DNA of 64,000 nt, taken from Gemmata palustris. GTDB lineage: Bacteria; Planctomycetota; Planctomycetia; Gemmatales; Gemmataceae. A program made the position numbers and the translations under genes. Numbering within the stretch: position 1 is the stretch's first letter; each line of letters starts with the position of its first letter. Location: positions 496,001 to 560,000 of the forward strand of contig NZ_JAGKQQ010000001.1 in assembly GCF_017939745.1 (NCBI RefSeq), read 5' to 3'. The notes beneath the pieces were generated by a model. It did not search any database. It was not told the origin of the DNA and was given only the letters and a program-made list of their open reading frames with translations. This document shows, piece after piece, positions 4,369-20,119 of the stretch.

Positions 4369-6495
4369 TCACTTCAACTCCGTCTTGAGCTCTTCCGCGC
4401 AAGCCTGCTCCAGTTCTCTGGCCGCGGTCTGGAGTTGTGGCTTAAGGCCCGCCGGGGCCTCGTCCGACTCTTTTACCCCTTTTTGTTCCCAGGATTGCAA
4501 CAGCGTCCCAAATGCGCTCATGGCACCGGCCACCTTGTCTTGTTCGACGAGGATCAAATCGCACCAGTAAAGGCGCCAGAACTGCTTCCGCGAGTTCGGC
4601 GTATCGGTTAATTTCTTGCCGTCTTTGGCGATCATGCTCACCGCATCTTGCGCCTGTCGGAACAGCGAGGCGCGGTTCTCGCGCAGCAGAACCAGGTAGC
4701 TCGGCACCGCCGTCTCCTCACCCGGCGGTGGTGGGAAGAACACACTCGGCCGGCCCATATTCTTGATGTCGTCCCGAATGATCTTCGCCACCGCGAAAAC
4801 GAGTTGATGGGTGCCCCTGGGGCGCGGCCATGTCCGCACCGCGGCGTCCGCCTTACCCACCTCCGGGCGCTCGAAAAATGAAACGAAGTACCGGTCGCCG
4901 TCCCGCGTCAGCTCGTCCTTCAACACCTCCCACTCGAGCCGCCGGGCTCCCCAGTCCTCTTCTGCGGCCAGGGCCACCTCGCCCAGCGCGCGGATCAACC
5001 GCACCTTCTTGGCGGTGTGTGCTTCCTGCCACTTCCGCGCGGCCTCGCGCCGTTGCACCTGCTCCCGCTCCGCGTCTAACGCGCGCGCCGCGGCGTCCTT
5101 TTCATCATTGGCCTTGCGCGCGCGTTGCTCCTCCTGGTGCGTGCGGTACACCTGGTACCCGTACACCCCGCCGGGGAGCAAGATCAGCCACCACGCCAAC
5201 AACCCCCAGAGGGTCCACGTGGCCCAATGGCCGGCCCGGAACACCCCCCACCCGCGGCGGTCGATACCTTTCAGCCGGTACCCGGGCGGGCGGTCCGCGC
5301 GGGCCGGGTGCCACACGGGTCGTTCGGCCCGCTCCCGCGAACGCACCTCTTGCGCCTCCGCCCGAGTCCGGGCCGCCGCGTACCCCTGGTGGACGATGGC
5401 GTCGATCTCGTCATCACTGAAGGCGTCCAAATCGGTGCGCGCGGTCGCGACCGCCAGTTGCTCACTCGGCCCCGGCGCGTAAGGCCGGTCGATCACGTCC
5501 GCGGCCGCTTGGGGCAGCGTGCAGTGGAGCAGCCGACCGCCGCTCCGCAACCGCTCCCGCGCGTACCCGTGCTCGAACCAGCTCACCCGGTCCATCATCA
5601 GGTCCACGCACCGACTCGTCCGCCCGGTAATCAGGCTGTAATCGTTGCCGTACTCCGCCGCCAGGGCCCGCTGGGCGTCGCTAACCACCAACAGGTCCAA
5701 CCGCTCGTTGGGCGGGAATAATTGCAGCATTCTACGTGTGCCCAAATTGTCATAAACTCCGCCGTCAGTCAGGTAGTGCGGGCGCGGGAAGCAGTCGGGG
5801 GCGACCCCGAACGTGGCGTGGTCGACCCGCACCGGTGGGAACAGCGGCGGGAACGCGGACGACGCGGCGACGGCCAGCCCGACCGGGACCGCGGCGACCG
5901 GAACCGGAACGGGGACCGCCTGTCGGTCGTCCGGCCCGGCCCCGGGCTCCTGCCCGAACCGCAGTTCAACGTTCCCGCGGTTGCTCCCGAACGCGACCAG
6001 GTGGCCCGTGGTGAAGCTGGTGGCCAAGAGCTGCACCTCCGGTCGGCCGGGGGCCGCCACCGCGCCCAGGGTCGCTCCGCGGTACAGGCGGTCGTACTCG
6101 CGCTGGAGCAGGGCCGTCCGCCACCAGCGCGCGCCCCGGAACCGGGGCGCGACCGCCAGGAACGATACCACCCACGGTCGGATCACCCGCCCGCGAACGT
6201 CCGCGCGCACGAACGCGACCAGTTCGCCGGCGGCGGCGTCGAACTGCTCCGGGGTGCCCGTGTACCGCTCCCAGTTGAGGACGAGGTGGGCCGCTAACAC
6301 GCTCCCCCCGGAAACGGAACACACGTGCGTCACGTTCGCCAGCAAGCCCTCCTCGTACAGAAAACGAACCACCCCGAGGTGGAAGAGCGTGGCCCGAAAC
6401 CCGCCCCCGGAGAGCGTGAGTCCGGTCCGCGGGCCGCTCGCGCCTTCGGGTGCTCGCGCCGGAACAGGGGCGGGCTGGTTGTTGTCGCCTGTCAT
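4369..6495 (-). CDS. membrane-anchored patatin-like phospholipase
   Basis: 708 residues. Numbering from the ATG: the oxyanion loop SGGGFRA (about 29-35), nucleophile motif SVSGG with Ser62, and catalytic DGG (Asp244) place residues 20-370 in the patatin family (Ser-Asp dyad lipid acyl hydrolases). The first position of the usual GxSxG is Ser. A hydrophobic segment (about 418-445) is followed by a highly charged coiled-coil-like stretch (about 450-510) and a C-terminal domain of about 190 residues that I do not recognise. There is no signal peptide, so the catalytic part should be cytoplasmic and tethered by the single membrane segment. The ATG at 6495 is preferred to a GTG at 6531 because the promoter at 6549-6577 would leave the GTG only a roughly 10-nt leader. 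Confidence 0.88.
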   Translation of the reverse strand: MTGDNNQPAPVPARAPEGASGPRTGLTLSGGGFRATLFHLGVVRFLYEEGLLANVTHVCSVSGGSVLAAHLVLNWERYTGTPEQFDAAAGELVAFVRADVRGRVIRPWVVSFLAVAPRFRGARWWRTALLQREYDRLYRGATLGAVAAPGRPEVQLLATSFTTGHLVAFGSNRGNVELRFGQEPGAGPDDRQAVPVPVPVAAVPVGLAVAASSAFPPLFPPVRVDHATFGVAPDCFPRPHYLTDGGVYDNLGTRRMLQLFPPNERLDLLVVSDAQRALAAEYGNDYSLITGRTSRCVDLMMDRVSWFEHGYARERLRSGGRLLHCTLPQAAADVIDRPYAPGPSEQLAVATARTDLDAFSDDEIDAIVHQGYAAARTRAEAQEVRSRERAERPVWHPARADRPPGYRLKGIDRRGWGVFRAGHWATWTLWGLLAWWLILLPGGVYGYQVYRTHQEEQRARKANDEKDAAARALDAEREQVQRREAARKWQEAHTAKKVRLIRALGEVALAAEEDWGARRLEWEVLKDELTRDGDRYFVSFFERPEVGKADAAVRTWPRPRGTHQLVFAVAKIIRDDIKNMGRPSVFFPPPPGEETAVPSYLVLLRENRASLFRQAQDAVSMIAKDGKKLTDTPNSRKQFWRLYWCDLILVEQDKVAGAMSAFGTLLQSWEQKGVKESDEAPAGLKPQLQTAARELEQACAEELKTELK

Positions 6496-6548
6496 ACCGC
6501 CGCCCTGGAATGGAGCTTGGGGAATTGTCACGGCTGGCTATCTATATT

Positions 6549-7120: not shown

Positions 7121-7918
7121 TCAAGACGGGGCGGGCAGGTTGCACGCCCGCTTGAAGTCGGCGAGCGTGCGGGCGTTCCGGGTCCGATCGTCGTCGGTGG
7201 TCACCAGATCCTTCTCAGTCGCGCTCTGGAGGAGTTGAGCGGCCCGCGCGAGCAACGGTTCCGAGTGGTCCAGCACGTTAATCAGATCGGTACCCCCGGC
7301 GACCAGCTCCTGAATCCGTGCGAGGAGGTCAGTGTGTAACTGCTGAACGCCACGGACAAAGGCGGAGTCCGCGCCGGCGAGCGCCACCGATTCGCGAACC
7401 GACTCCCGGCTTGAGAAGAACTTCTTCTTCGTCTCCTCGTAGAACCCTTCGTACTTTTTGTCAGGGATGACGTAGGCGATCCGCTTCATGTACGCGATGA
7501 GGAGCGTGCAGGCGCACATCGCGCACGGGTCGAAGGCGTTGTACAACGAGCACCCGACCCGCAGGAAATCGCCGGGCTGTCCGCCTTTGGCCATGAACAG
7601 CGACGACCGGTAGTAATCCTCCACGGTCACCCCCGCACCCCGCGGGCGCTTCCGGCGCAACCGCTCGTGGGCCGCGCGGATGACCACCTGCTCCGCGTGT
7701 TGGAGCGGGTTCTCGTCCGCGTGGATCGAGTTCCGACCGACCGCCAGAACCTCGCCATCCGTGTTATCGATCACGCAGCAGTGGACGTTCAGCCCCGCGA
7801 AGTGCGTTGGTGGGGCGCCGGTCCGCGCCGGGATCGGGCGGTCGAAGAGGAAGTACGTTCGGGCCAACAGGCCCAGCGTCGCGATCGCGTCCCGTTCCGT
7901 TCGGAGCTGCTCGTCCAT
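7121..7918 (-). CDS. CMP/dCMP- or tRNA-adenosine-type deaminase family protein
   Basis: 265 residues. The zinc-binding deaminase motifs are present: His74-Ala-Glu76 (HAE) and Pro131-Cys132-x-x-Cys135 (PCAMC), which in this superfamily bind one Zn and provide the proton-shuttling Glu. The deaminase core spans about 40-165. The helical C-terminal 100 residues (many Ser/Arg/Leu heptads) are extra compared with free CDA or TadA. The substrate (free base, nucleotide, RNA or DNA) cannot be read from sequence. No signal peptide. It lies 51 bp after the start of the exported nuclease-like gene on the same strand and upstream of the small protein and patatin genes. Confidence 0.85.
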   Translation of the reverse strand: MDEQLRTERDAIATLGLLARTYFLFDRPIPARTGAPPTHFAGLNVHCCVIDNTDGEVLAVGRNSIHADENPLQHAEQVVIRAAHERLRRKRPRGAGVTVEDYYRSSLFMAKGGQPGDFLRVGCSLYNAFDPCAMCACTLLIAYMKRIAYVIPDKKYEGFYEETKKKFFSSRESVRESVALAGADSAFVRGVQQLHTDLLARIQELVAGGTDLINVLDHSEPLLARAAQLLQSATEKDLVTTDDDRTRNARTLADFKRACNLPAPS

Positions 7919-10531: not shown

Positions 10532-11482
10532 TCACGGGCGCGTGATGCTCCATCGCGTCGGTCCGCCCTTCGCGAGCCCGTCGCAGAGCAGGAGCACGTC
10601 GTAAGTTCGCCCTTCCGTCTTCAGCACGGCGAGCCCCTCTGGTTTGGCCGCACCCAAGTTCGAGAACTCCCCGAGCAGTTCGGGGACCGGGCCGTTCTCC
10701 CCGAGCCGGAGGTGATCGGTTCCGTCCCAGAAGTAAATGCGGTACGTGGAGTCGCCGTCGCCGACCGGACCGGCCAGAATCAGGAACCCGCCGTTCACTG
10801 CGGTGAGATCCCGAATGCCCCGACCGCCGAGCCGGATGTAGCGCACCTGCGATTCAGTCGGGGCGTCCCAGGTACACGACAAGACGGGCACCCACGCGCC
10901 CCGGAGGACCGGCCCCCGGAAGCCGAAATGGAGGTGCCCGTCCTTGATTGCGAGCCCCTCAATATCGATGCCGTTTTCCTTGCTGGCGACCGCACGGAAC
11001 GGTCCCAATACGGGGTGCGCGTCGAGCGCCGGGGTGAGTGTCTTCGGCCCCTCTACCGCCCCTGCCGTACCATCAGCGGCGAGTTTGAACCGGAAGAATT
11101 GTTCGCGCGACTTCTTGCCCTTCACCTCTCCAAGCACGCCGTCTTCCACTTTCCGTGTCGCGCAGTGCGACCCGGTCACGTAGACGGTGCCGTTCCCTCT
11201 GTCCAAACCGACGGCTTCCAGGTCCACCTCGTCATCCCCGGCCGGCAACTTCACCGACCCGGCCGCCACGAACCCCTCTCCGTCTCGCTTCAACAACTGA
11301 ACCGTCGTCGGCTTCTTCATCTCGTCGGAGACGATCGCGAGGAAATTGCCGGTGCCGTCCACCCCGCTAACGGACGTTTGGGGCTTCTCCTTGCCGGAGA
11401 ACAGTTCGCCCGCGAAGTCCACGGGCACGCCGTGAACCGCGTGGCCGTTCGGGGCGGTCAGTACCAGTGTGACGGTTTTCAA
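10532..11482 (-). CDS. DUF3616 domain protein
   Basis: 316 residues, acidic, without a signal peptide. The whole length matches the pattern of DUF3616 proteins: short beta-strand repeats resembling a propeller (SGVDGTGNFLAIVSDE, DLEAVGLDRGNGTVYVTGSH, GIDIEGLAIKDGHLHFGFRG, IRDLTAVNGGFLILAGPVG, KPEGLAVLKTEG). The repeated D/E-x-E-G/A-L motif is typical of this family. Its biochemical role is unknown. It starts 62 bp upstream of the haem-protein gene on the same strand; the protease cassette upstream ends with its own hairpin at 11558-11589. Confidence 0.82.
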   Translation of the reverse strand: MKTVTLVLTAPNGHAVHGVPVDFAGELFSGKEKPQTSVSGVDGTGNFLAIVSDEMKKPTTVQLLKRDGEGFVAAGSVKLPAGDDEVDLEAVGLDRGNGTVYVTGSHCATRKVEDGVLGEVKGKKSREQFFRFKLAADGTAGAVEGPKTLTPALDAHPVLGPFRAVASKENGIDIEGLAIKDGHLHFGFRGPVLRGAWVPVLSCTWDAPTESQVRYIRLGGRGIRDLTAVNGGFLILAGPVGDGDSTYRIYFWDGTDHLRLGENGPVPELLGEFSNLGAAKPEGLAVLKTEGRTYDVLLLCDGLAKGGPTRWSITRP

Positions 11483-11557: not shown

Positions 11558-11589
11558 CCCCGTGCCCGAACACTTTGTCGGGCACGGGG
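11558..11589 (-). terminator. hairpin at the end of the protease cassette
   Basis: A perfect 12-bp stem, CCCCGTGCCCGA (11558-11569) with TCGGGCACGGGG (11578-11589), loop ACACTTTG. It lies 24 bp past the stop of the last subtilase gene. The minus-strand sequence after it has only a weak T-rich segment (CGTTGTTCT), so termination or 3'-end protection is likely but not certain. Confidence 0.6.
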
Positions 11590-11612: not shown

Positions 11613-13301
11613 TCACTCGGTCGGGAGGACGTCGGCGTCCGGTTGGAGCAGGCGGTTCACCGGAGTGTGCCCGTTCGTGTAACCGGTCGCGGCGATCGGT
11701 GCCGGCGCCGTGATCGGCTCACTCGCGACCGACACTCCACTAGCGGTGACGTTGATCGTCACCTGCGACGAACTGATCGCGATCGTGACCCCACCCCTGA
11801 CGGGAGCCGGTTCCGCGGACCCAACGCTTGCTTCTGTTGGCGGCGCGGACGGGACCAGCCGGGCGATGATGTGGCGCAAGTTCGGCCGGGTGCCGATCCG
11901 CTGGGTGCGCGGGCGCCCGGGCGCGTCCTGTTGGGGTGAACCCGTGGCGCGGAGGAGCGTCCGCGCCACGGCGGGAGTGAGCAGTGGGCGGTTGCGGGCG
12001 CGGAGCACGCCCTGGGCGCACCCGAGCACCCCGACCACGATGGGCGATGCGCTCGACGTACCGCTGAAGGTGTCGGTGTACCACCGGTCGCGGTCGGACC
12101 CGCCTTGCAGGTTCCCGTACCCGGTGCTGGTCACTTCCCGCCCCCAACCCTGAACGTCGACGCGCGCGCCGTAGTTCGAGAAATCGAGGCGCGAGCGGTC
12201 CGGGCCGTGGTCGCGCCCGTGGGTTCCGGGCGGCGGAGCGCCGGCCCCGACCAGAACGGCTCCGGACGTCGGGTTGTTCGGATTGAACGGGTTCCGCCAC
12301 GCCGCCGGGAACCCCGCGCCGGGGGTGTTGTAAATGGCCGCGTCCAGATTCCGCGCGCCGTTCCCGGCGGCCTCCACCACGATCACGCCGCGCGCGACCG
12401 CGTAGCGAATCGCCGCCAGGTCATCGGGCCACCATTCGATGGCGATGAATCCGTCCTGCCCGACCCCGCTGCCGCCCGGTCCGCGCCGGTGGATCTCCAG
12501 GAGCATGATGTCACCGGGCCGGAGCCGGTCGGCCGCCATGCGGATGACGCGGGCCGTCGGCAGCGTGGCGAACGACGCGGCCATCACCCGCGCGTCCGGG
12601 CAGATGCCCTCGATTCCGAACCCGTTCCGGTCGCCGCTGATCTCGCCGAGCACCGCGGTGCCGTGGTCGTCGTCGGAGATGCCGGTGCCGATCACCACGC
12701 CGCCCTGGTTCACCCGCAGGTCTTCGTGGTTGAACCGCCAGCCCCACTCGCAGTCGATGATGTTCACGCCCGCGCCGCGGCCCCCGCTCAGGGTCCAGGC
12801 GTACCGTGCGTCCACCCCGGTCGGGGCGGCGTTCAAATAGAGCTGCCGGGCCGTGAAGTTCGGAGTGGTCGCCGGCGGCTCTTCTTCCGAAGGGGCCATT
12901 TCCGCCAACACTTCGAGGTCGATCGCCACGGGCGGCTCCCCGGGCGGCTTCACGTAGGCGCCGGTCACTCCGTCCAGGCCGCGGAGCCGATCGGCGAGCG
13001 CCTCCAGATCCTCGCCCGGCGCGGAGACGTGGTAGAACGTGGCCATGTCCGCACCGGTCGCGTCCGGGAACTCCAGCGCGCGTTCCCGGATCAGATCCTC
13101 GGACACGCCGAACAGCGGTTCGATGGTGATACCCGGGCCGGCCAGGGCTTCCGCGAGTCCGCTCACGTCCGCTCCCGCGCGGGACGCGAACCCCTCCGCG
13201 GTCATGCGCAGCTCCGCAGCGGCATCGGCCACCAGGATCAGTTCGGCCCGCCCGGGGCCGGTGGACGGGGTCGGATGGGACGGGGTCTTTTTGCGGGCCA
13301 T
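11613..13301 (-). CDS. intracellular subtilase (S8) with built-in I9-like prodomain
   Basis: 562 residues. The catalytic triad is Asp183 (NIIDCEWG), His213 (DDDHGTAVLG) and Ser416 (FSGTSSASP), with oxyanion Asn314 (AAGNG), so an active peptidase S8 is predicted at about 160-480. Residues 20-125 resemble a subtilisin prodomain and match the neighbouring mini-protein 13311-13574 (ITIEPLF versus VTLEPLH; AYVKPPGEPP versus AYPKPADGPP). A 75-residue linker-like tail follows. There is no signal peptide; the protein starts MARKKT, like the other subtilase of the cluster, so it should act in the cytoplasm. GAGGAG precedes the ATG. It is the last gene of the five-gene cassette, 10 bp after the mini-protein. 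Confidence 0.92.
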   Translation of the reverse strand: MARKKTPSHPTPSTGPGRAELILVADAAAELRMTAEGFASRAGADVSGLAEALAGPGITIEPLFGVSEDLIRERALEFPDATGADMATFYHVSAPGEDLEALADRLRGLDGVTGAYVKPPGEPPVAIDLEVLAEMAPSEEEPPATTPNFTARQLYLNAAPTGVDARYAWTLSGGRGAGVNIIDCEWGWRFNHEDLRVNQGGVVIGTGISDDDHGTAVLGEISGDRNGFGIEGICPDARVMAASFATLPTARVIRMAADRLRPGDIMLLEIHRRGPGGSGVGQDGFIAIEWWPDDLAAIRYAVARGVIVVEAAGNGARNLDAAIYNTPGAGFPAAWRNPFNPNNPTSGAVLVGAGAPPPGTHGRDHGPDRSRLDFSNYGARVDVQGWGREVTSTGYGNLQGGSDRDRWYTDTFSGTSSASPIVVGVLGCAQGVLRARNRPLLTPAVARTLLRATGSPQQDAPGRPRTQRIGTRPNLRHIIARLVPSAPPTEASVGSAEPAPVRGGVTIAISSSQVTINVTASGVSVASEPITAPAPIAATGYTNGHTPVNRLLQPDADVLPTE

Positions 13302-13310
13302 TGGTGCTCC

Positions 13311-13574
13311 TCAGAGAGTGCCGGTCGATGGGGGGCCGTCGGCCGGTTTGGGGTACGCCGCCACAACAGCGGAGTTCGCGAGCAATCGGGCACAGATGTC
13401 GTCCGCGGACGCATCGGGTACGTCAGCGAAGAACTGCCCGGCGAGGTCGGGGTCCGTCGTTCCCGGGTGCAGCGGTTCCAGGGTGACGCCGATGTCGGTC
13501 GCGATCCGGGCACGTTGATCGTCCCGGGCCGTATTTCGGGCGCCCACCGGCGCCAGATGGACGGTGATGAACAT
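13311..13574 (-). CDS. stand-alone I9-like propeptide/inhibitor mini-protein
   Basis: 87 residues from the ATG at 13574 (GAGGAG upstream). The sequence alternates a strand (FITVHLAP), a helix, a strand (GVTLEPLHPG), a helix (SADDICARLLANS) and a strand (VVAAYPKP), the beta-alpha-beta pattern of the ferredoxin-like I9 prodomain fold. It resembles the N-terminal prodomain of the subtilase encoded 10 bp downstream, so I infer a trans-acting folding chaperone or inhibitor of that protease. No signal peptide. Assignment rests on pattern and context. Confidence 0.78.
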   Translation of the reverse strand: MFITVHLAPVGARNTARDDQRARIATDIGVTLEPLHPGTTDPDLAGQFFADVPDASADDICARLLANSAVVAAYPKPADGPPSTGTL

Positions 13575-13620
13575 GGCGCTCCTCGCCACAGAAAGTCTGG
13601 TGCGGTTGGGTGCGAACAGC

Positions 13621-13651
13621 GCGGTGGGGCGGTGAGCGCCCGCCCCACCGC
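13621..13651 (-). other. intergenic hairpin inside the protease cassette
   Basis: Perfect 12-bp stem GCGGTGGGGCGG / CCGCCCCACCGC with a 7-nt loop, between the fusion-protein stop (13660) and the I9-like start (13574). No T-tract follows on the minus strand, so it may be an mRNA processing or stability element instead of a terminator. Confidence 0.5.
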
Positions 13652-13659
13652 GGCCCGGG

Positions 13660-15519
13660 TCACAACACGAGGTCGGACGCGGTGGTCAGTTCCCGGGCCG
13701 GAGCGGGCGCTGCGGTCTCCGTTCCGGCGAGCGGGTCGAAGTCCGACAGGTTCCCGAACGACAGCCCGGTCGCGTCCTCGACCCGGGCGATCGGTACCTG
13801 ATAGGTGCGGAACGGGCCGAACACGAACGGCGCCTCGAAGTCGTCCTGGAGGTTCCTCTGCGTGAGCATGTACGCCGTGGCGGACAGCTTCCCGTCGGTC
13901 TTCACCATCGCGACCACCTTCCAGTAGTCGAGCGGGATGCGCGTGCCGCGGTACACCGGATCGGCGGGCGCGAGGACCGGTCCTGTAAACACCGACACCT
14001 TCAGGTTCCGCTGGTCGGTGTTGTTCAGGATGTAGTCTTCCAGGTCGTTCCAGGTGCGCTGGTTCAGATCCTTGTGTTGTGGGCAGGAATTCGTGTAGAA
14101 GAACGTGTCATTGTTCGCCGCCTTCGCGACCGCGGCCGATCCCCACACCGGGTCCAGCCGGCGGACCATGTGTCCGCGGTCCAGGTTGTTGTTGCGGTAC
14201 AGTTCGTTCCCGGACTGCGCATCAGCCGGGATGCGCGGGTCCAGGAACCAGTTATCGGCCCGGCGCAGGTTCAGCGACTGGTTCCCGTCGATGTTAACGG
14301 CGGTGAAGTAGCACAGGCGCCGGGACCGGCACATCACGACTGAGAAGTGCGTGTACGCGAGCACGAAATCGTCCCGCCCGGGCACCGAAACCGCGTCATC
14401 CTCTTGAGCGGACGACAGGATCGGTAACCGCACGCGGCGTCCGGTGCCCAGGAAGTCGGGCCGGTACCCCTCGCGCCCGGCGAGGCTCGCCGTGGTCGGG
14501 GCCTCGGGTGCGGTTCCTCCCGGCACCGCGATCCCCGGGCGCGAGGCCGGGAGTCGATCCAGTACCGAGCGAATGACTTCTGCCTTCACCGCGAAGTTGG
14601 CCGTTTTGAAGCGCCCGCCGAAGTGCAGCCCGACCGCGGCCCCGGTTTGAACGTCGAGCACCGCCGAGCCGGAGTTCCCGCCGAGGGTGGAACAGTTGTG
14701 TTGGATGTCGGTCGCGCTCGCGGCGGGCATCAGGTACCCCGGGGCGAGGCGCTTCACGTCGTAGATGTCGCGGAAGATGTTGCGCATCGCGTCCTCGCCG
14801 TTGCGCGAGTCCCATGCCGGGTACCCGACGACGGCTACCGGGCCATCAATGCGGCTGCTCGCGGCCAGTTGCACCGGTCCGGGCAACTCGTCGGCGGTGC
14901 CCAGTTCCAGCACCGCCATGTCCGGTTGGCCCGGTTCGTCCGGGGCGATGTACAACACGCGGGTGACCGGTACCTCTTTGATCGCGCCGGTTTGGTACTC
15001 TTCTTTGAAGTCGATGCGGGCGGTCAGCGACCCACCGAGCGGGCTGGGGCGGAACACGAACCCTTGCCCCCGGCCCTGCGCGAAGACGTTCGCGACGTGG
15101 CGGTTCGTGGCCACTAGCCGGTCGCCGATCACCCACGCGGTGCCGACCCATTCGTAGGTCGTGTGCCCGGTCAGTTCGACGCGCCCCACGGACCGGAGGG
15201 CCGATTCCAACACGGCCCGACTCGGGTTCAAGCGCGTCTGCCAGTATTCCAGTTCCGGTTCCTCGAACGAGTCGTTGCGCACCAGGAGCGACGGGCGCCC
15301 GTCCAAGAGGACGATCGCCTCGGAATAGTCCTGCGCGTCCGCATCGGGCAGCGGGCGCCCCTCCATAACGGCCCGGTAATCGGCCGGGGCCAGGGCGACT
15401 TCGTTCGCGTCGAGGACCGGGCGGTGCGCGGCGAGCGTCTTTTTCGACCGGTCGCGGATCTCGGCCATTAGCTCGGTGTCCGCGAGGACGGCGGTAAACG
15501 TGCGGGACAGGGAACTCAT
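13660..15519 (-). CDS. trypsin-like protease fused to NUC1/EndoG-type nuclease
   Basis: 619 residues. Residues 1-100 form an unrecognised N-terminal region. A trypsin-like (Trypsin_2) domain follows, with catalytic His141 (ATNRHVA), Asp200 (QPDMAVLEL) and Ser283 (LGGNSGSAV). Residues 345-600 are a DNA/RNA non-specific endonuclease (NUC1/Endonuclease_NS) with DRGH at 447-450 (catalytic His450) and the metal-ligand region NQRTWNDLE (Asn486, Trp490). Both active sites look complete. No signal peptide, hence a cytoplasmic location is predicted. The combination suggests a nuclease whose activity is controlled by, or released by, proteolysis; that is inference. It lies in the middle of the cassette between two I9-like mini-genes and is flanked by hairpins on both sides. 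GAGG precedes the ATG. Confidence 0.93.
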   Translation of the reverse strand: MSSLSRTFTAVLADTELMAEIRDRSKKTLAAHRPVLDANEVALAPADYRAVMEGRPLPDADAQDYSEAIVLLDGRPSLLVRNDSFEEPELEYWQTRLNPSRAVLESALRSVGRVELTGHTTYEWVGTAWVIGDRLVATNRHVANVFAQGRGQGFVFRPSPLGGSLTARIDFKEEYQTGAIKEVPVTRVLYIAPDEPGQPDMAVLELGTADELPGPVQLAASSRIDGPVAVVGYPAWDSRNGEDAMRNIFRDIYDVKRLAPGYLMPAASATDIQHNCSTLGGNSGSAVLDVQTGAAVGLHFGGRFKTANFAVKAEVIRSVLDRLPASRPGIAVPGGTAPEAPTTASLAGREGYRPDFLGTGRRVRLPILSSAQEDDAVSVPGRDDFVLAYTHFSVVMCRSRRLCYFTAVNIDGNQSLNLRRADNWFLDPRIPADAQSGNELYRNNNLDRGHMVRRLDPVWGSAAVAKAANNDTFFYTNSCPQHKDLNQRTWNDLEDYILNNTDQRNLKVSVFTGPVLAPADPVYRGTRIPLDYWKVVAMVKTDGKLSATAYMLTQRNLQDDFEAPFVFGPFRTYQVPIARVEDATGLSFGNLSDFDPLAGTETAAPAPARELTTASDLVL

Positions 15520-15562
15520 GAGCGCCTCAGAAAACGTGTGTAAACGGGTGCGAATCGCGGTG

Positions 15563-15595
15563 GTTCCACCGCCCGGACGGTCCGGGCGGTGGAAC
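15563..15595 (-). other. intergenic near-perfect palindrome in the cassette
   Basis: Arms GTTCCACCGCCCGGAC (15563-15578) and GTCCGGGCGGTGGAAC (15580-15595) are perfect reverse complements around one base. In RNA it would give a 14-bp stem with a 5-nt loop. It lies between the second I9-like gene (stop 15626) and the fusion gene (start 15519). Possible roles are transcript processing, attenuation or protein binding. Confidence 0.55.
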
Positions 15596-15625
15596 GGGGT
15601 GTTCTGGAACTCCCGCGGTGCGGCG

Positions 15626-15856
15626 CTACTGGGGGCCGTCCGGCGGGATCTGGACGTCGCCGTCCGGTTCGACCGACGCGATTCCGGGCATCGCGCCGAG
15701 GGCGGACGTTTGACCGTGATCGGCCGAGCCGGTGATGATCCCGGTCGTGGACAGGATCTGGTCCACGGTCATGCCGGCCCGAGTGAGGCTCTGAGCGACT
15801 TCGTCGATCCGGCCCAGTTGTGCGGGATCGACGGTGACGACGATGCGCGTTTTCAT
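15626..15856 (-). CDS. second stand-alone I9-like mini-protein
   Basis: 76 residues. The pattern MKTRIVVTVDP, helix (GRIDEVAQSLTRAG), strand (MTVDQILSTTG), strand (IITGSAD), helix and strand (GIASVEPDGDVQIPP) is that of a free-standing I9/subtilisin-prodomain-like ferredoxin fold; such proteins bind the active-site cleft of S8 peptidases with their C-terminal strand (family knowledge). GAGGAGAGCC precedes the ATG. It lies 50 bp after the upstream subtilase gene and before the fusion gene. It is different in sequence from the other mini-protein, so each may serve one of the two subtilases. Confidence 0.8.
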   Translation of the reverse strand: MKTRIVVTVDPAQLGRIDEVAQSLTRAGMTVDQILSTTGIITGSADHGQTSALGAMPGIASVEPDGDVQIPPDGPQ

Positions 15857-15871
15857 GGCTCTCCTCGCGAG

Positions 15872-15894
15872 CCGCCCCGGTTCGACCGGGGCGG
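15872..15894 (-). other. intergenic hairpin between subtilase and I9-like genes
   Basis: Stem CCGCCCCGGT (15872-15881) / ACCGGGGCGG (15885-15894), 10 bp perfect with loop TCG, no T-tract. It occupies the short gap between the subtilase stop (15907) and the mini-protein ribosome site. Confidence 0.5.
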
Positions 15895-15906
15895 GGACGT
15901 TCGTGG

Positions 15907-17298
15907 TTACTGGGGCGCCTGAACTAGACCCGCACCGGCGTCGATGACGGGAATTCCGACCGGGCGCGCGGACCGGGTGAGCGCGTTCCACAGCGCGGCC
16001 CCGCGCAGGCCCCGGGCCTGTGCCCACAGCGCGGCGATGCCGGCCACGTGCGGGGTCGCCATGCTCGTCCCGGAAATCGAGTGGTACCGGGCCGGCCACG
16101 CCGGGGTGCGCGGCTGACCGAGCGGTAGGGCCGGTGTGGGGACTGATGAGAACACCGCGACCCCCGGCCCGATGATGTCCACTTTCCCGCCCGCGACCGG
16201 GTTACTGGTACATGAGAACGAGGCGAGCTTCAGATCGCTCTGAATGGCAGCAACGGCCAGGATCGACGGGCTGTTCGCCGGTTGCCCGACGTTGCCCGGG
16301 GGGCGCATCGGGGGGAGCGGAGTCTGCCGGTGGTTGCCCGCTGCGGCCACGATCAGGCACCCCCGGTCGAGGGCGCGCCGGCCCACCGTCTCGTAAGCGT
16401 TCAAGACGGCCGTGAGCTTGTTGCCGAGTGACATTGAGATCACCGGGCACTGCTGGTTGATCGCCCATTCCATCCCGGCGAGGATCCACCCGCCCTGGCC
16501 CGACCCCTGGTTGTCCAGAACCTTGCCGATGTAGATGTCGCACCCGTAAGCGACGCCGTACCGCCGCGCGCCGCCGGGCGGCACCCGGGTGCCGCACGCG
16601 GTCCCGGTGCAGTGGGTGCCGTGCCCGTGCCCGTCCTGCGCCGACTGCCCCGGGACGAACGACTGGCTGACGACCCGCCGGCCGAGGAAGTCCGGGTGGT
16701 CGAGGTCCAGCCCGGTGTCCAGAACGGCTACCCGGATGCCCTGGCCATTGAACCGCGACGACGGGACGCGGCACGCCTGGAGGCCCCAGGTGAGTAGCGC
16801 AGTGTCGGCGAGCGCCGGGGGCGCGTCGTCGCCGATTAAGTCCGCGCGGTGCCCGTTCATCTGCTCGTACAGGTGGTCCACCGCGGCCTTGTACCCGCGG
16901 TAGTAGTCGAGCTCCGGCGGGGCGGCGGGCGCTTGCGTGGCGTAGAACATCGGCTCCGGTTCGACCGACACGACGCGGGTCCGCTCGTCGCCGCACGCCG
17001 CGGTCAGGAGCTGGCCCCGGTCCCCGGACACGACCGCGATCCCGATGTCGGTGAACACCACGGCGTCGGCGGCCGCGGCCTCGGCCATGTCCACCGCGTT
17101 CTCCTCATACTCGTCGGAGGTCGCCACGTGGGTGACCCCGGCCGCACTCTTCAGCGCGTCGACGCACTGTTTGGTGTTGCCCGCGCACTCGTCCGCGAGG
17201 ACGACGAGGTACCGCCCGGTCGTTTCCGGTCCGGGACCGGTGTCGGCGGGCGCGTGGTTCGGGGAGTGGGGGTCGCGGTGTGATTTCTTTCGAGCCAC
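15907..17298 (-). CDS. second intracellular subtilase (S8), first gene of the cassette
   Basis: 463 residues. Complete triad: Asp194 (VAVLDTGLD), His226 (HGHGTHCTG), Ser412 (GTSMATPHVAG), oxyanion Asn322 (AAGN). Residues 28-120 may be an I9-like prodomain (RYLVVLAD, RVVSVEPEPMF). The protein starts MARKKSH with no signal peptide, unlike most bacterial subtilases, so it is predicted to be cytoplasmic. The start is GTG at 17298 with GAGGAG 6 nt upstream. It is the first gene of the minus-strand cassette and is divergent from the ECF sigma gene at 17464. It is closer to canonical subtilisins than the downstream S8 gene, so the pair is unlikely to be a recent duplication. Confidence 0.93.
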   Translation of the reverse strand: MARKKSHRDPHSPNHAPADTGPGPETTGRYLVVLADECAGNTKQCVDALKSAAGVTHVATSDEYEENAVDMAEAAAADAVVFTDIGIAVVSGDRGQLLTAACGDERTRVVSVEPEPMFYATQAPAAPPELDYYRGYKAAVDHLYEQMNGHRADLIGDDAPPALADTALLTWGLQACRVPSSRFNGQGIRVAVLDTGLDLDHPDFLGRRVVSQSFVPGQSAQDGHGHGTHCTGTACGTRVPPGGARRYGVAYGCDIYIGKVLDNQGSGQGGWILAGMEWAINQQCPVISMSLGNKLTAVLNAYETVGRRALDRGCLIVAAAGNHRQTPLPPMRPPGNVGQPANSPSILAVAAIQSDLKLASFSCTSNPVAGGKVDIIGPGVAVFSSVPTPALPLGQPRTPAWPARYHSISGTSMATPHVAGIAALWAQARGLRGAALWNALTRSARPVGIPVIDAGAGLVQAPQ

Positions 17299-17327
17299 GG
17301 GCGTCTCCTCAGGAGGGGGGCGAGCGG

Positions 17328-17387
17328 GCGCGGACCGCGCTCCCGCTCAGAAGAAGAGCGACGAATCCCGGGCGCGCGGACCGCGCT
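17328..17387. promoter_or_regulatory. repeated palindrome in the divergent control region
   Basis: GCGCGGACCGCGCT occurs at 17328-17341 and again at 17374-17387. Each copy is an internal palindrome (GCGCGG-A-CCGCGC) and the copies are 46 bp apart (start to start) between the subtilase start (17298) and the sigma gene (17464). This is the arrangement expected of paired operator sites, but no known regulator motif was recognised. Confidence 0.45.
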
Positions 17388-17463
17388 ATTCAAAATTTCA
17401 TTTTCCAGAATTCGACCGACCGCCTAGTATTGTTTTCATCCAACAACTCCCGGAGCTGCGGAT

Positions 17464-18045
17464 ATGACTCTCACGATCGCTGATCCGGTTCAAGTTTGGC
17501 TCGATGCGCACCGGGCCGGGACGAAGCCCTCGCACAACGATCTCTGTGTGCTGTGCGAGGGGCGGGTGCGCGAGCTCGTGCGGCGCCAGCTCCGCACGTT
17601 CCCGTTGGTCGTTCAGGACTCGCAAACGACCGAGGTGGCGAACGCGACGCTGCTCCGCCTCCTCGCGGCCCTCGGCAGCCGTGTCTGTCCGCAATCGACG
17701 CTCGATCTCGAACGGTTTCTGGCGCACATCGTTCGCCGCGTCCTGCTCGATATGAACAAGGCGATTCAGAACCGGCGGCGCCGGGTCGGGGCGCTCGGGG
17801 ACGCGCCGATCGCGGCCCCCGAAGATGGGGACCAGATCGAAACGGACCTGATGGTGGCGTTCCACGAGTATGTTGAGGCGCTCCCTCCGGACGAGCAGGC
17901 GCTCTTCGACGTGTTCTACTACCAGGGAAAAACCAAACTCGAGGCCGCGGCGCTGCTCGGTTTGCCCCCCACGACCGCGCACGCCCACTGGGTCAAGGCC
18001 CGGTACCGCGCGAGTAAGAAATTCGGGCGCGATCTGACCGATTGA
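17464..18045 (+). CDS. ECF sigma factor
   Basis: 193 residues. Region 2 (helices around LVRRQLRTFPLVVQDSQ and LERFLAHIVRRVLLDMNKAI) and region 4 with a helix-turn-helix (ALPPDEQALFDVFYYQGKTK, then LEAAALLGLPPTTAHAHWVKARY) are recognisable, and no other domain is present. In planctomycetes such sigma factors are commonly paired with Ser/Thr kinases, as here with the kinase starting 154 bp downstream. It is transcribed away from the protease cassette and shares its control region, so it is a candidate regulator of it. ATG at 17464 with GGAG upstream. Confidence 0.88.
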   Translation: MTLTIADPVQVWLDAHRAGTKPSHNDLCVLCEGRVRELVRRQLRTFPLVVQDSQTTEVANATLLRLLAALGSRVCPQSTLDLERFLAHIVRRVLLDMNKAIQNRRRRVGALGDAPIAAPEDGDQIETDLMVAFHEYVEALPPDEQALFDVFYYQGKTKLEAAALLGLPPTTAHAHWVKARYRASKKFGRDLTD

Positions 18046-18199
18046 AAAATTGAGACGGCGAACCGCGCGGGGCGGTGAAGGAATTCACTCGTTCGTGTTT
18101 GTCGTTCGCCGGGGAATTGGAACCCGATCCGCGAAGTTTGCCGTTTTGGGAAAAAACGGACCGCGGGGCCTCCGGCCGTCGCTCTTCGGGTGAGCCATC

Positions 18200-20119
18200 A
18201 TGCCACACACCGAAATTACTGACGATTTCGCGTTCGCCCTCTACGCCCAGTGGGAGGACGCAAAGGCCGAGGGGAGAGGCATCTCTCTGGAGCAGATCTG
18301 CGCCGCCCGCCCCGAACTCCTACCGGACGTCCGGGAGATCGCCCGGTGGCTCCTGCCCGAATCGGTTCTGTTTTGCACCCCGTTGGGAGGCGACTCGGTG
18401 CCCTCCGGTGAGCATTGGGTTCCCCCCGACTGGGTCAAAATCGGCCGCGGGGCGTCGAGCGTCGTGTTCCGCGGGCAAGATCCCACCTTCGGTACGGCGG
18501 TCGCGTTCAAGGTGCTCCAACTACAGGGGCCGGTGGACGGCGCTCGGTTGATGAAGCGGTTCGAGCAGGAGGCCCGGATCCTCGCGCGCCTGAAGCACGA
18601 CGGGATCGTTCGGATCTTCAAAACCTTCGATCTGGGGAGCCGCCCCGTCATCGAGATGGAGCACCTCCCGAACGGCAGTCTGGTGACGCACCTGGAAGAG
18701 GTGCGCGCCCGGGGCGCGGCCGGGATCGCCCGCTTCATGGAGCGCGTCGCGCGGGCGGTGGGTTTCGCCCACGAGCACGATATTGTTCACCGCGACCTGA
18801 AGCCGAGTAACATCCTCCTGAACGCCGAGAACCGACCCTGTGTCTCCGATTTCGGGATCGCGAAACTGCTCGGCTCGGACCGCGACGCCCCCGAACCGGC
18901 GCCGGCCGTTGACCCGAATGACACGGCCACCGAAAGCGCGTGCCTGACGGCCCAGGGGCGGCAGCCCGGCACGCGGGCGTACATGGCCCCCGAACAGTTC
19001 GACCCCGATCTCGGCTCCACCACTCCGGCCACGGACGTGTGGGCGCTGGGCGTGATCCTCTACGAATTGTTGACCGGCCGCCAGCCTTTTACGGGCAGAA
19101 CCTTTGCAGAGTGGAAAGCGGCCGCCTGTACGCGCCCGGTGGAGTGGCCGCGCCGCTCCCGGTGGCGCGCGTCCGGCCGGCTCGAGCGAATCGCGCGGCG
19201 CTGCCTGGAGCGGAACCCGAAGCGCCGGTACCGGTCCGCGACCGAGTTGGCCGACGACTTGGCCGCGCTTTCCCGGCCGGTCCGGTGGGGCGCGCTATTG
19301 TTGGTGGGCGCGAGCGTGGCCTGCGCGGGGCTCGCAACCGGCCTCCTCCTGCACCGCGAACCGGCTACTACACCCGCGGTCTCGGCACCAGGGGCCGCGC
19401 CGCCGGCCTGGATCAATCCCGGAGCCGCGACCGCAATCACGATCACGGACCAGCTCGAACGCGGGGAAACCGTCGTCGCGTGCGGCGCGGGCGAACGGGT
19501 GGCCTACCGCTCCGTCCTGGGCACCCCGAACGTTCAGGCGTTCAAGAACCGGGTCACGGTGTATTCCAGCAGCGAGGGCGCGGTGGAACTCGTTCCCCCG
19601 CTCCCGTACAAGGGGCGGTACGGGGTTCGGGTCACCCTTTCTCACAACGGCGCGGACACCAACATGTCCCTCGTCGGCGCGTTCGCGGGCGGTTGCGGGT
19701 GGTGGACCGAAGCGAGTTCCGGGTACCGCTGCTTCGTGGTCGGGTTCAGTGACACGGGCCTGATCGCCGGGCACAAGAGGGGGTTCGGTTTACACGCGGT
19801 GTCCCCTGTGGGCGGCAGTTCGACCGCCGATTCCCGGGTGGTGTGGCGGGAATCTCAACCGAAGCAAGAGCCCGCGGTGCGGGTGATCGAGTTCCGCGTC
19901 GGCGACGGCGCACTCGAAAGCCGCCTGGACGCGGCCATTCTGCCCCCGCTCACGGACACGGACCTCCAAGCCCGAACCGCACCAACTCCGCGCCCCAACG
20001 CCCCTCCGCACGCGCCCCCTTTACCCGTCGCCCGCGGGGGAATCGGAGTGTACGTGAGCGGCGGGTTCGCTGTTATCAGACGAGTCGAAGTGTTTCCCCT
20101 ACTTAAAACGGACCACTAA
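18200..20119 (+). CDS. Hanks-type Ser/Thr protein kinase, membrane-bound
   Basis: 639 residues. The kinase domain lies at about 78-345: glycine loop IGRGASSVVF (81-90), VAFK with Lys104, catalytic loop HRDLKPSN (197-204), DFG (217-219) and YMAPEQ. A transmembrane segment follows (about 354-378; WGALLLVGASVACAGLATGLLL). The 260-residue C-terminal part is beta-rich and faces the periplasm; I do not recognise it. The first 75 residues precede the kinase as in many planctomycete kinases. An inserted acidic segment (about 225-255) lies before the activation-segment end. It is probably co-transcribed with the ECF sigma gene upstream and the Ig-like gene 17 bp downstream, and could sense an extracytoplasmic signal. 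Confidence 0.92.
   Translation: MPHTEITDDFAFALYAQWEDAKAEGRGISLEQICAARPELLPDVREIARWLLPESVLFCTPLGGDSVPSGEHWVPPDWVKIGRGASSVVFRGQDPTFGTAVAFKVLQLQGPVDGARLMKRFEQEARILARLKHDGIVRIFKTFDLGSRPVIEMEHLPNGSLVTHLEEVRARGAAGIARFMERVARAVGFAHEHDIVHRDLKPSNILLNAENRPCVSDFGIAKLLGSDRDAPEPAPAVDPNDTATESACLTAQGRQPGTRAYMAPEQFDPDLGSTTPATDVWALGVILYELLTGRQPFTGRTFAEWKAAACTRPVEWPRRSRWRASGRLERIARRCLERNPKRRYRSATELADDLAALSRPVRWGALLLVGASVACAGLATGLLLHREPATTPAVSAPGAAPPAWINPGAATAITITDQLERGETVVACGAGERVAYRSVLGTPNVQAFKNRVTVYSSSEGAVELVPPLPYKGRYGVRVTLSHNGADTNMSLVGAFAGGCGWWTEASSGYRCFVVGFSDTGLIAGHKRGFGLHAVSPVGGSSTADSRVVWRESQPKQEPAVRVIEFRVGDGALESRLDAAILPPLTDTDLQARTAPTPRPNAPPHAPPLPVARGGIGVYVSGGFAVIRRVEVFPLLKTDH

Follow-up and report, generated by a model that had tools for sequence, protein, structure and literature searches.

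A Gemmata palustris locus combining subtilases, separate prodomain-like proteins and a LypC-type protease-nuclease fusion: a candidate intracellular conflict module

Introduction

That nucleases are activated by proteases in bacterial immunity has recently been demonstrated for trypsin-like and caspase proteases. Tuck et al. (2025, PMC12799240) describe gated nuclease-protease pairs in Hachiman, AVAST, Lamassu and canu; in Hachiman, AVAST and canu, pro-nucleases are activated by trypsin or caspase proteases. Trypsin/NucA systems, sometimes with an S8 peptidase, were predicted as conflict systems in which a proteolytic cascade deploys the nuclease (System 3 of Kaur et al. 2020, PMC7159879); the passages of that paper that deal with System 3 present it as enriched in multicellular bacteria and describe it mainly from alphaproteobacteria. 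In Caulobacter crescentus, the CARD-NLR-like system LypABC triggers GTA-linked lysis, for which the peptidase of LypC is essential and its nuclease residues are dispensable (Banks et al. 2026, PMC13236601).

Here, we analyze a locus in a 64,000-nucleotide stretch of the Gemmata palustris genome (hereafter, the window), in which two subtilases (S8-A and S8-B), two small proteins (mini1 and mini2) and a trypsin-nuclease fusion are encoded together. The initial annotation of this DNA knew of no publication on such a combination of genes. This view has to be abandoned, since a conflict system of NucA, trypsin and in some cases S8 was predicted by Kaur et al., and the architecture of the fusion is shared by LypC. 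What is new is the presence of subtilases with separate I9-fold partners as a likely safety catch.

Results

Gene layout

All five open reading frames initially assigned to a single strand were confirmed on the minus strand within 11613-17298. They are indeed closely spaced, but the gaps measure 50, 106, 85, and 9 bp, and not exactly the 10-107 bp first given. The view of the locus as a five-gene cassette was correct for these genes but too narrow, because a DUF3616 gene and a divergent ECF/kinase pair, missed earlier, are conserved alongside. The features are as follows.

15907..17298, minus strand: S8-A, subtilase of cytosolic type, 463 aa, GTG start (Pfam Peptidase_S8, 2.8e-44)
15626..15856, minus strand: mini1, stand-alone protein of predicted I9-propeptide fold, 76 aa, partner of S8-A (AlphaFold2 model, gene position)
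13660..15519, minus strand: LypC-type fusion, Trypsin_2 + Endonuclease_NS/NucA (Pfam, catalytic motifs, tree)
13311..13574, minus strand: mini2, apparently detached prodomain-like protein, 87 aa, partner of S8-B (hhalign, conserved gene position)
11613..13301, minus strand: S8-B, the other subtilase, 562 aa, itself prodomain-like at the N-terminus (Pfam Peptidase_S8, 1.7e-12)
10532..11482, minus strand: DUF3616 protein, 316 aa, conserved sixth gene, 130 bp past S8-B (PF12275, 3.4e-29)
17464..18045, plus strand: ECF-type sigma factor, divergent from S8-A (PF07638 and PF08281)
18200..20119, plus strand: Ser/Thr protein kinase, apparently crossing the membrane once, its C-terminal part variable (PF00069, 1.5e-43)
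17299..17463, no strand: divergent intergenic region, 165 bp, probable control region (conservation across loci)
15563..15595, minus strand: strong hairpin without T-tract in the mini1/fusion gap (fold energy)
11558..11589, minus strand: terminator-like hairpin in the S8-B/DUF3616 gap (12-bp stem, T-rich tail)

The start of mini2 was placed at the ATG at 13574, which follows a GAGGAG-like site; a longer GTG open reading frame begins at 13589. Substitutions relative to a 96%-identical locus (G208) cluster at third codon positions in the S8-A, mini1, fusion, S8-B, and DUF3616 genes (20/7/77 differences by codon position in the fusion). In mini2, third positions stand out only weakly (10/8/12), and the gene was accepted as coding because its homologues are conserved. 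In agreement with the initial annotation, no signal peptides were seen: the proteins have no hydrophobic N-terminal stretch, the best 15-mers reaching a mean hydropathy of 0.9-1.5 (a heuristic rather than a SignalP result), and the same was true of the N-termini of relatives read by eye.

The trypsin-nuclease fusion

The proposed fusion of a trypsin-like protease to a NUC1 nuclease was verified, with Trypsin_2 (PF13365, 3e-13) at residues 126-298 and Endonuclease_NS (PF01223, 7e-49) at residues 381-590. The trypsin H/D/S motifs (TNRHV, PDMA, GGNSGS) are present, as are the DRGHM motif and the N..Q..LN site of the nuclease. None of the four Gemmata-type fusions has a disrupted nuclease motif, and the same holds for most full-length relatives. 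A homologous LypA-LypB-LypC-like operon is carried by a Paraburkholderia plasmid (L070), and a Paracoccus locus (L071) contains an S8 gene together with LypA/B/C-like genes. Other relatives adjoin caspase, MoxR/VMAP-like, patatin, CBASS phospholipase and Dpd genes on plasmids. The fusion thus belongs to a family already tied to bacterial immunity and programmed lysis. Fusions linked to an S8 gene and a mini fall into two separate clades of the tree. A search of viral contigs returned no relative of the fusion and one weak S8 match.

The subtilases and their small partners

The catalytic sites of both subtilases are complete, as first reported: D/H/N/S motifs were found in S8-A and S8-B, and both match Peptidase_S8. 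Both also begin with MARKK, but this is not a strict signature, the relatives starting with MARKR or MAKNK. The N-terminal domain of S8-A (~120 aa) is I9 prodomain-like in pattern, and the protein weakly matches the PADLOC model of IetS (4e-8). S8-A relatives are present in 15 of 248 genomes of the class and S8-B relatives in 7 of 95 genomes of the family.

The description of the minis as I9-like can be kept on structural and profile grounds, but not by the Pfam standard: neither reaches the PF05922 (I9) gathering cut-off, and only 2 of 14 mini1 homologues match I9 (best E 0.02). Because searches of mini1 against Pfam, NCBIfam and PDB sequences gave I9 hints only, its fold was assigned from a predicted structure. 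The AlphaFold2 model (pLDDT 84) has subtilisin propeptides as its top structural matches (Z 8 to 9.7), so that an I9 propeptide fold is predicted for mini1. Residues E63/D65 of mini1 (in 'VEPD') parallel the helix-capping Glu69/Asp71 of the BPN' propeptide (PMC6993865). When the mini1 profile was compared with the N-terminal domain of S8-A, the match was no more than suggestive (E 5.6e-4, 30%; reversed control, 0.3%). The second small protein, mini2, is homologous to the N-terminal domains of S8-B proteins (hhalign probability 96%, E 3.6e-9; reversed control, 0.12%), and it precedes S8-B in loci G208, G242, and G248 as well. Each mini is the immediate gene neighbour of its S8. Judged by these comparisons and the model, both minis resemble subtilase prodomains that have become separate proteins.

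In 10 other loci, mini1 homologues lie directly 3' of S8-A homologues, and the S8-A/mini1 pair occurs in 11 of the 16 further planctomycete loci inspected, usually with no nuclease beside it; these counts come from a planctomycete-only mini profile, while a joint planctomycete and rhizobial profile shows only that small genes occupy the same place. Rhizobial minis resemble mini1 in position and size, and profile comparisons detected no sequence similarity between them.

Distribution and co-occurrence

Co-occurrence in other genomes, which the initial annotation had proposed as a check, was found: S8-mini pairs and the fusion are neighbours repeatedly in unrelated bacteria. Within the family, the fusion and mini1 are present in the same 4 of 95 genomes and are always adjacent, with some variation in content and order (G242 has kept mini1 and lost S8-A; in G287, the order is fusion-S8-mini). 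The S8-mini-fusion order recurs in Rhizobium CIAT894 and on an Agrobacterium Ti plasmid, and in Ensifer, an S8-mini pair is accompanied by a nuclease with no trypsin domain. An S8 gene adjoins the fusion in 4 of about 15 fusion lineages. The window's genome has about 0.9 S8 genes per Mb, and at an assumed 1% background, the adjacency of S8 and fusion exceeds chance (p about 1e-5).

S8-mini pairs stand alone in many genomes and plasmids, and rhizobial pairs also occur without the fusion. Together with the fusion-free S8-A/mini1 loci of planctomycetes, this indicates that the pair also exists in its own right. The S8-mini pair can be named as a concrete two-gene unit, seen in planctomycetes and proteobacteria.

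Flanking genes and non-coding elements

The DUF3616 gene lies beside the cassette in four of four full-length loci of the family, and this protein is thereby connected to protease-nuclease loci. The divergent ECF-sigma/kinase pair is kept in all three loci with enough flank (window, G208, and G242), the conservation of the kinase being limited to its kinase part. At E<=1e-100, the kinase was not found in the other 17 genomes of the genus. An empty-site comparison revealed no clear point of insertion, since the DUF3616 gene and the kinase are themselves missing from other genus members.

The 165-bp divergent region is well conserved between the window and G208 and poorly in G242; no sigma-70-like promoter was found in it. 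The 106-bp mini1/fusion gap has a fold energy of -46 kcal/mol (z -3.4), and the shape of its hairpin is not conserved in G208 or G242. A stem similar to the terminator-like hairpin is also present in G208. With hairpins in two gaps, a single transcript across the cassette is a candidate only. PADLOC analysis of ten neighbouring proteins revealed no other defence system, the Ser/Thr kinase matching only generic kinase models. Profile searches of the window region for LypA and LypB gave no match, and neither the five proteins nor their nearest neighbours matched EAD1, STAND or Death-like domains in Pfam scans.

Discussion

We tentatively interpret the locus as a protease-nuclease module that serves in conflict or regulated death inside the cell, and in which an I9-gated subtilase module is set on a LypC-type effector; we put the chances of this interpretation close to even. 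The effector part would be a LypC/NucA-type protein whose trypsin domain is fused to a non-specific EndoNS nuclease. The other part would consist of two cytosolic subtilases, each under an I9-type prodomain in cis and also controlled in trans by a separately encoded prodomain-like mini. From this arrangement, we infer inhibition, a trigger, an order of the cascade, lethality and an anti-phage role: in the resting cell, the mature subtilases would be bound and silenced by the minis; a trigger would destroy or titrate the minis; and the freed subtilases would cleave the fusion (or shared targets), turning on the trypsin domain and releasing the nuclease, with loss of DNA/RNA and cell death or arrest as the outcome. 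Expression is probably set by the divergent ECF sigma factor and the kinase, and the DUF3616 protein may sense or scaffold.

Several lines of evidence favour the module reading: the linkage of fusion and mini1 in the same four genomes, the recurrence in alphaproteobacteria, the two tree clades and the above-chance adjacency; the predicted mini1 fold with E63/D65 and the homology of mini2 to S8-B; the caspase, patatin, CBASS phospholipase and Dpd genes beside relatives of the fusion; and the precedents of System 3, LypC, the Hachiman/AVAST/canu pro-nucleases and stand-alone propeptide inhibitors. The conflict or cell-death idea of the initial annotation thus gains support. Counting against it are the S8-mini pairs without the fusion, the loss of S8-A in G242, the dissimilarity of mini1 and rhizobial minis, the lack of PADLOC hits among neighbours and the hairpins. 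Moreover, since the nuclease of LypC is dispensable for lysis, the idea of the nuclease as the killer may be wrong.

There is an alternative, which we consider unlikely, in which the subtilases are the toxic effectors and the minis their antidotes, while the trypsin domain of the fusion destroys the antidotes or starts the cascade and the nuclease is accessory. It agrees with the essential protease of LypC, with the direct adjacency of each mini to its S8 and with the many solitary S8-mini pairs, but not with Ensifer, where the pair is kept with a nuclease and without the trypsin domain; the intact motifs of the Gemmata-type nucleases and most full-length relatives likewise imply that the nuclease matters. 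Ordinary intracellular proteolysis, with the minis as trans folding chaperones and safety inhibitors of housekeeping subtilases, a co-regulated fusion and no conflict role, is improbable. The patchy spread (4 of 95 genomes) is unlike that of housekeeping genes, and the same trypsin-nuclease partner has been joined repeatedly across unrelated phyla, even if S8-A/mini1 occurs in many planctomycete loci, mostly without a nuclease, and pairs of ECF sigma factors and Ser/Thr kinases are common planctomycete regulators.

Secretion is common among subtilases and NucA nucleases, and the proteins could act outside the cell after non-classical export (by lysis, vesicles or an injection apparatus), digesting prey or competitors. 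We regard this as very improbable: the hydrophobic N-termini are lacking, the separate cytosolic-type I9-fold partners would need to be co-exported, and no secretion genes are present among the neighbours scanned. A chance neighbourhood of unrelated proteolysis genes is scarcely credible; order and content do vary, as in G242 and G287, but the content is kept despite reshuffled order in four genomes and recurs independently in alphaproteobacteria. Chance adjacency was rejected on the linkage in family genomes and the statistical excess of S8 neighbours.

Beyond this locus, S8-mini may be a general mobile module of bacteria in which one gene encodes an intracellular protease and another its antidote, and which has been combined with different effectors on repeated occasions; we view this extension as possible but doubtful. 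Joined to a LypC-type protease-nuclease, such a module would form a two-key death switch.

Comparison with known systems

As in System 3, a NucA/Endonuclease_NS domain and a trypsin-like peptidase are fused in one protein of the window. The S8 peptidase, optional in System 3, is represented by two separate adjacent genes, whereas the System 3 passages place it in the same polypeptide and describe it without separate prodomain-like minis. Some System 3 operons carry EAD1, STAND or Death-like components, and those passages do not mention DUF3616 or ECF/kinase genes. The trypsin-endonuclease layout is that of LypC; the window fusion is homologous to the LypC of L070, and Caulobacter LypC was compared by description. 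In contrast to LypABC, the window has neither LypA (CARD-trypsin-ATPase) nor LypB (NLR), with subtilases and minis in their place; the NLR sensor of the LypABC layout is thus replaced by something else. Activation of a partner nuclease by a protease, as in the immune pairs of Tuck et al., is a proposal for the window. Those pairs have an MBL-fold nuclease encoded separately from the protease, which is either a caspase or a trypsin joined to a defence sensor, whereas the window nuclease is an Endonuclease_NS, not an MBL-fold enzyme, fused to trypsin and accompanied by S8 enzymes. IetAS is likewise an anti-phage system with an intracellular subtilase (IetS), but IetS is longer, IetAS has no mini-proteins, and the window has no IetA-like ATPase.

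SUB1-ProM, POIA1, yeast IB2 and plant SPI-1 are small separate proteins with the subtilisin propeptide fold, which is also predicted for mini1, and SUB1-ProM is likewise encoded beside subtilase genes. These proteins are eukaryotic and their inhibitory activity has been shown, whereas the window minis are bacterial, cytosolic, putative inhibitors. If our interpretation is correct, the S8-mini pair would be a bacterial counterpart of SUB1-ProM-like stand-alone propeptide inhibitors and a protease-based analogue of a toxin-antitoxin pair.

The five-gene cassette

The window genome is that of a planctomycete (9.2 Mb), with a Fimbriiglobus MAG as its nearest named relative among the matches listed. 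The cassette genes and conserved flanking genes are:

15907-17298, minus strand: S8-A subtilase (Pfam Peptidase_S8), first in transcription order
15626-15856, minus strand: mini1, second
13660-15519, minus strand: trypsin-nuclease fusion, a single protein (Pfam Trypsin_2 and Endonuclease_NS), third
13311-13574, minus strand: mini2, fourth
11613-13301, minus strand: S8-B subtilase (Pfam Peptidase_S8), fifth
10532-11482, minus strand: DUF3616 gene, conserved sixth locus member
17464-20119, plus strand: ECF sigma factor and Ser/Thr kinase, divergent from S8-A

The five ORFs named in the initial annotation were validated by coordinates, Pfam matches, and comparison with the closest locus (G208, same genus, 96% identical), where differences cluster at third codon positions in all genes except mini2. 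The mini2 pattern is weak (10/8/12 differences by codon position), and its coding status was accepted because conserved homologues exist. Complete D/H/N/S motifs were read in translations of both subtilases, and the trypsin (TNRHV, PDMA, and GGNSGS) and nuclease (DRGHM and the N-site) motifs of the fusion are all present, in agreement with the annotated catalytic triads and trypsin-like/NUC1 architecture. A simple hydropathy scan found no hydrophobic N-terminus in any cassette protein, as expected from the annotated lack of signal peptides. The intergenic gaps, given earlier as 10-107 bp, measure 50, 106, 85, and 9 bp in transcription order. Two of the cassette gaps contain hairpins, and S8-B is separated from DUF3616 by a terminator-like stem. 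In G242, another family genome, two gaps are reduced to 36 and 27 bp and have no hairpins. Co-transcription of the cassette is therefore plausible.

DUF3616 adjoins the cassette in 4/4 family loci with a full-length fusion. The divergent sigma factor and kinase are kept in all three loci having enough flank (window, G208, and G242); the C-terminal part of the kinase is variable, and longer in the G208 and G242 relatives. G208, the sole other genome of the genus with the cassette, is also the only other one in which DUF3616 and the kinase were found. Among relatives, gene content is kept while order is reshuffled: mini1-fusion-mini2-S8-B-DUF3616 in G242, which lacks S8-A, and fusion-S8-mini-DUF3616 in the family genome G287. 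On a Bradyrhizobium plasmid (L134, L139), DUF3616 also lies close to a gene for phospholipase D and to a LypC-type fusion; in R. ruizarguesonis (L141) it is close to genes for caspase and C25 peptidase. A few kb downstream of the cassette, the window encodes a patatin-like phospholipase (4369-6531), not found within the stretch examined near the G208 locus, and a cytidine-deaminase-like protein (7121-7918), whose gene is also present there.

Prodomain-like partners of the subtilases

The reading of both minis as I9-like stood in part. No Pfam family matched mini1 above cut-off, and 2 of its 14 homologues matched I9 (best E 0.02). The best structural matches of the AlphaFold2 model of mini1 (pLDDT 84) were subtilisin propeptides (Z 9.7 to 8), which scored above most unrelated ferredoxin-like folds, NapD nevertheless reaching Z 9.2; POIA1, a stand-alone I9 inhibitor, scored Z 7.7. 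In the mini1 VEPD motif, E63 and D65 correspond to the Glu/Asp pair described as helix-capping in the BPN' propeptide (PMC6993865). mini2 and the S8-B N-terminal domain are homologous (hhalign 96%, E 3.6e-9; reversed control 0.12%), while profile comparison of mini1 with the S8-A N-terminal domain was suggestive at most (E 5.6e-4). Each subtilase thus appears to have a prodomain-like region both in cis and in trans.

Recurrence in planctomycetes and beyond

Homologues of the cassette genes do cluster elsewhere. The full-length fusion was found in 4/95 family genomes, and mini1 in the identical four, adjacent to the fusion every time; the chance of such overlap is ~3e-7 assuming independent genomes, which they are not. 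mini2 precedes S8-B in G208, G242, and G248, the last of these a family genome in which our search of the 95 found no full-length fusion. S8-A relatives occur in 15/248 class genomes. A mini1 homologue lies directly 3' of the S8-A relative in 10 of 16 other loci and is adjacent but divergent in an eleventh; loci lacking it are mostly the most diverged. Most of these loci in other planctomycetes have no fusion, so that S8-A/mini1 is a two-gene unit independent of it. In genome G629, a nuclease remnant of the fusion's family lies 1.2 kb upstream of an S8-A/mini1 locus; it comprises the C-terminal third, interrupted by stops (L124 9160-9447), upstream of tandem S8 genes and the mini1 homologue, and the locus is a decayed cassette relative. 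A single ORF in G402 (L089 568-1887) joins an S8-A N-terminal part, in which the region of the catalytic serine is missing, with a full mini1 homologue, through either an in-frame deletion or an assembly artefact.

The order S8, ~80-aa gene, trypsin-nuclease fusion is repeated on Rhizobium CIAT894 and Agrobacterium Ti plasmids. In a tight row, Ensifer (L046 5111-7855) has the same S8 and small gene (83 aa here), followed by a nuclease that lacks the trypsin domain; R. leguminosarum and Pararhizobium carry the S8-small-gene pair without any nuclease. No sequence similarity could be detected between the rhizobial small proteins and either mini1 or I9, and the equivalence is therefore positional. 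In a 20-row tree of fusions, S8-mini-linked members split into two separate clades, with further S8-linked cases in Paracoccus (S8 with LypA/LypB/LypC-like genes) and genome G217. Four of about 15 fusion lineages have an S8 neighbour, versus an assumed background near 1% (8 S8 genes were counted in the 9.2-Mb window genome).

On several plasmids, fusion relatives have an immunity-like setting, with neighbouring caspase, VMAP-type MoxR, patatin, CBASS phospholipase, and Dpd genes; a homologous LypA-LypB-LypC-like operon is found on a Paraburkholderia plasmid. A Fuerstiella MAG fusion (L021 6980-10987, 49% identical to the window's) lies beside an opposite-strand caspase-domain gene, with no S8 nearby. 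The P. aeruginosa plasmid pZYPA1927 carries a solo fusion (L064 7797-9725, 47% identical) flanked by ilvA and a LysR gene, without an S8, NLR, or mini partner. A short hydrophobic motif, TVTIPLTVTVSIGQ, is conserved in the linker that joins the trypsin part to the nuclease part in L067, L068, L066, and L060 (Rhizobium, Agrobacterium, Bradyrhizobium, and a distant planctomycete). It is absent from the window fusion and resembles a motif for aggregation or signalling.

Proposed mechanism and known systems

We infer the following order of events, killer, and trigger. The minis would most likely keep mature cytosolic subtilases silent until a trigger takes them away; the freed subtilases would then process the fusion, releasing trypsin and nuclease activity and leading to death or arrest. 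In Caulobacter LypC, GTA-linked lysis requires the serine of the protease but not the nuclease residues (PMC13236601), a warning that the nuclease may be less important than the trypsin domain or than the subtilases themselves. A PADLOC scan of ten neighbouring proteins found no defence system beyond generic kinase matches.

Of the proposed conflict or death system, the gene set and its recurrence were borne out, while the claim that no such system had been published was not. In Kaur et al. (2020), NucA-type nucleases are coupled to trypsin-like, sometimes S8, peptidases, and this NucA-peptidase arrangement (System 3) is a predicted conflict system activated via a proteolytic cascade (PMC7159879). 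LypC has the same trypsin-endonuclease layout as the window fusion (PMC13236601); LypA and LypB are absent from the window. Tuck et al. (2025; PMC12799240) demonstrated biochemically that MBL pro-nucleases are activated by trypsin-like proteases in Hachiman and AVAST and by a caspase in canu. A limited literature search found no description of loci of this kind in which bacterial subtilases have prodomain-like partners encoded by separate genes. The locus belongs with the known NucA-peptidase/LypC-type theme, and the S8 plus trans-prodomain module is its most original element.
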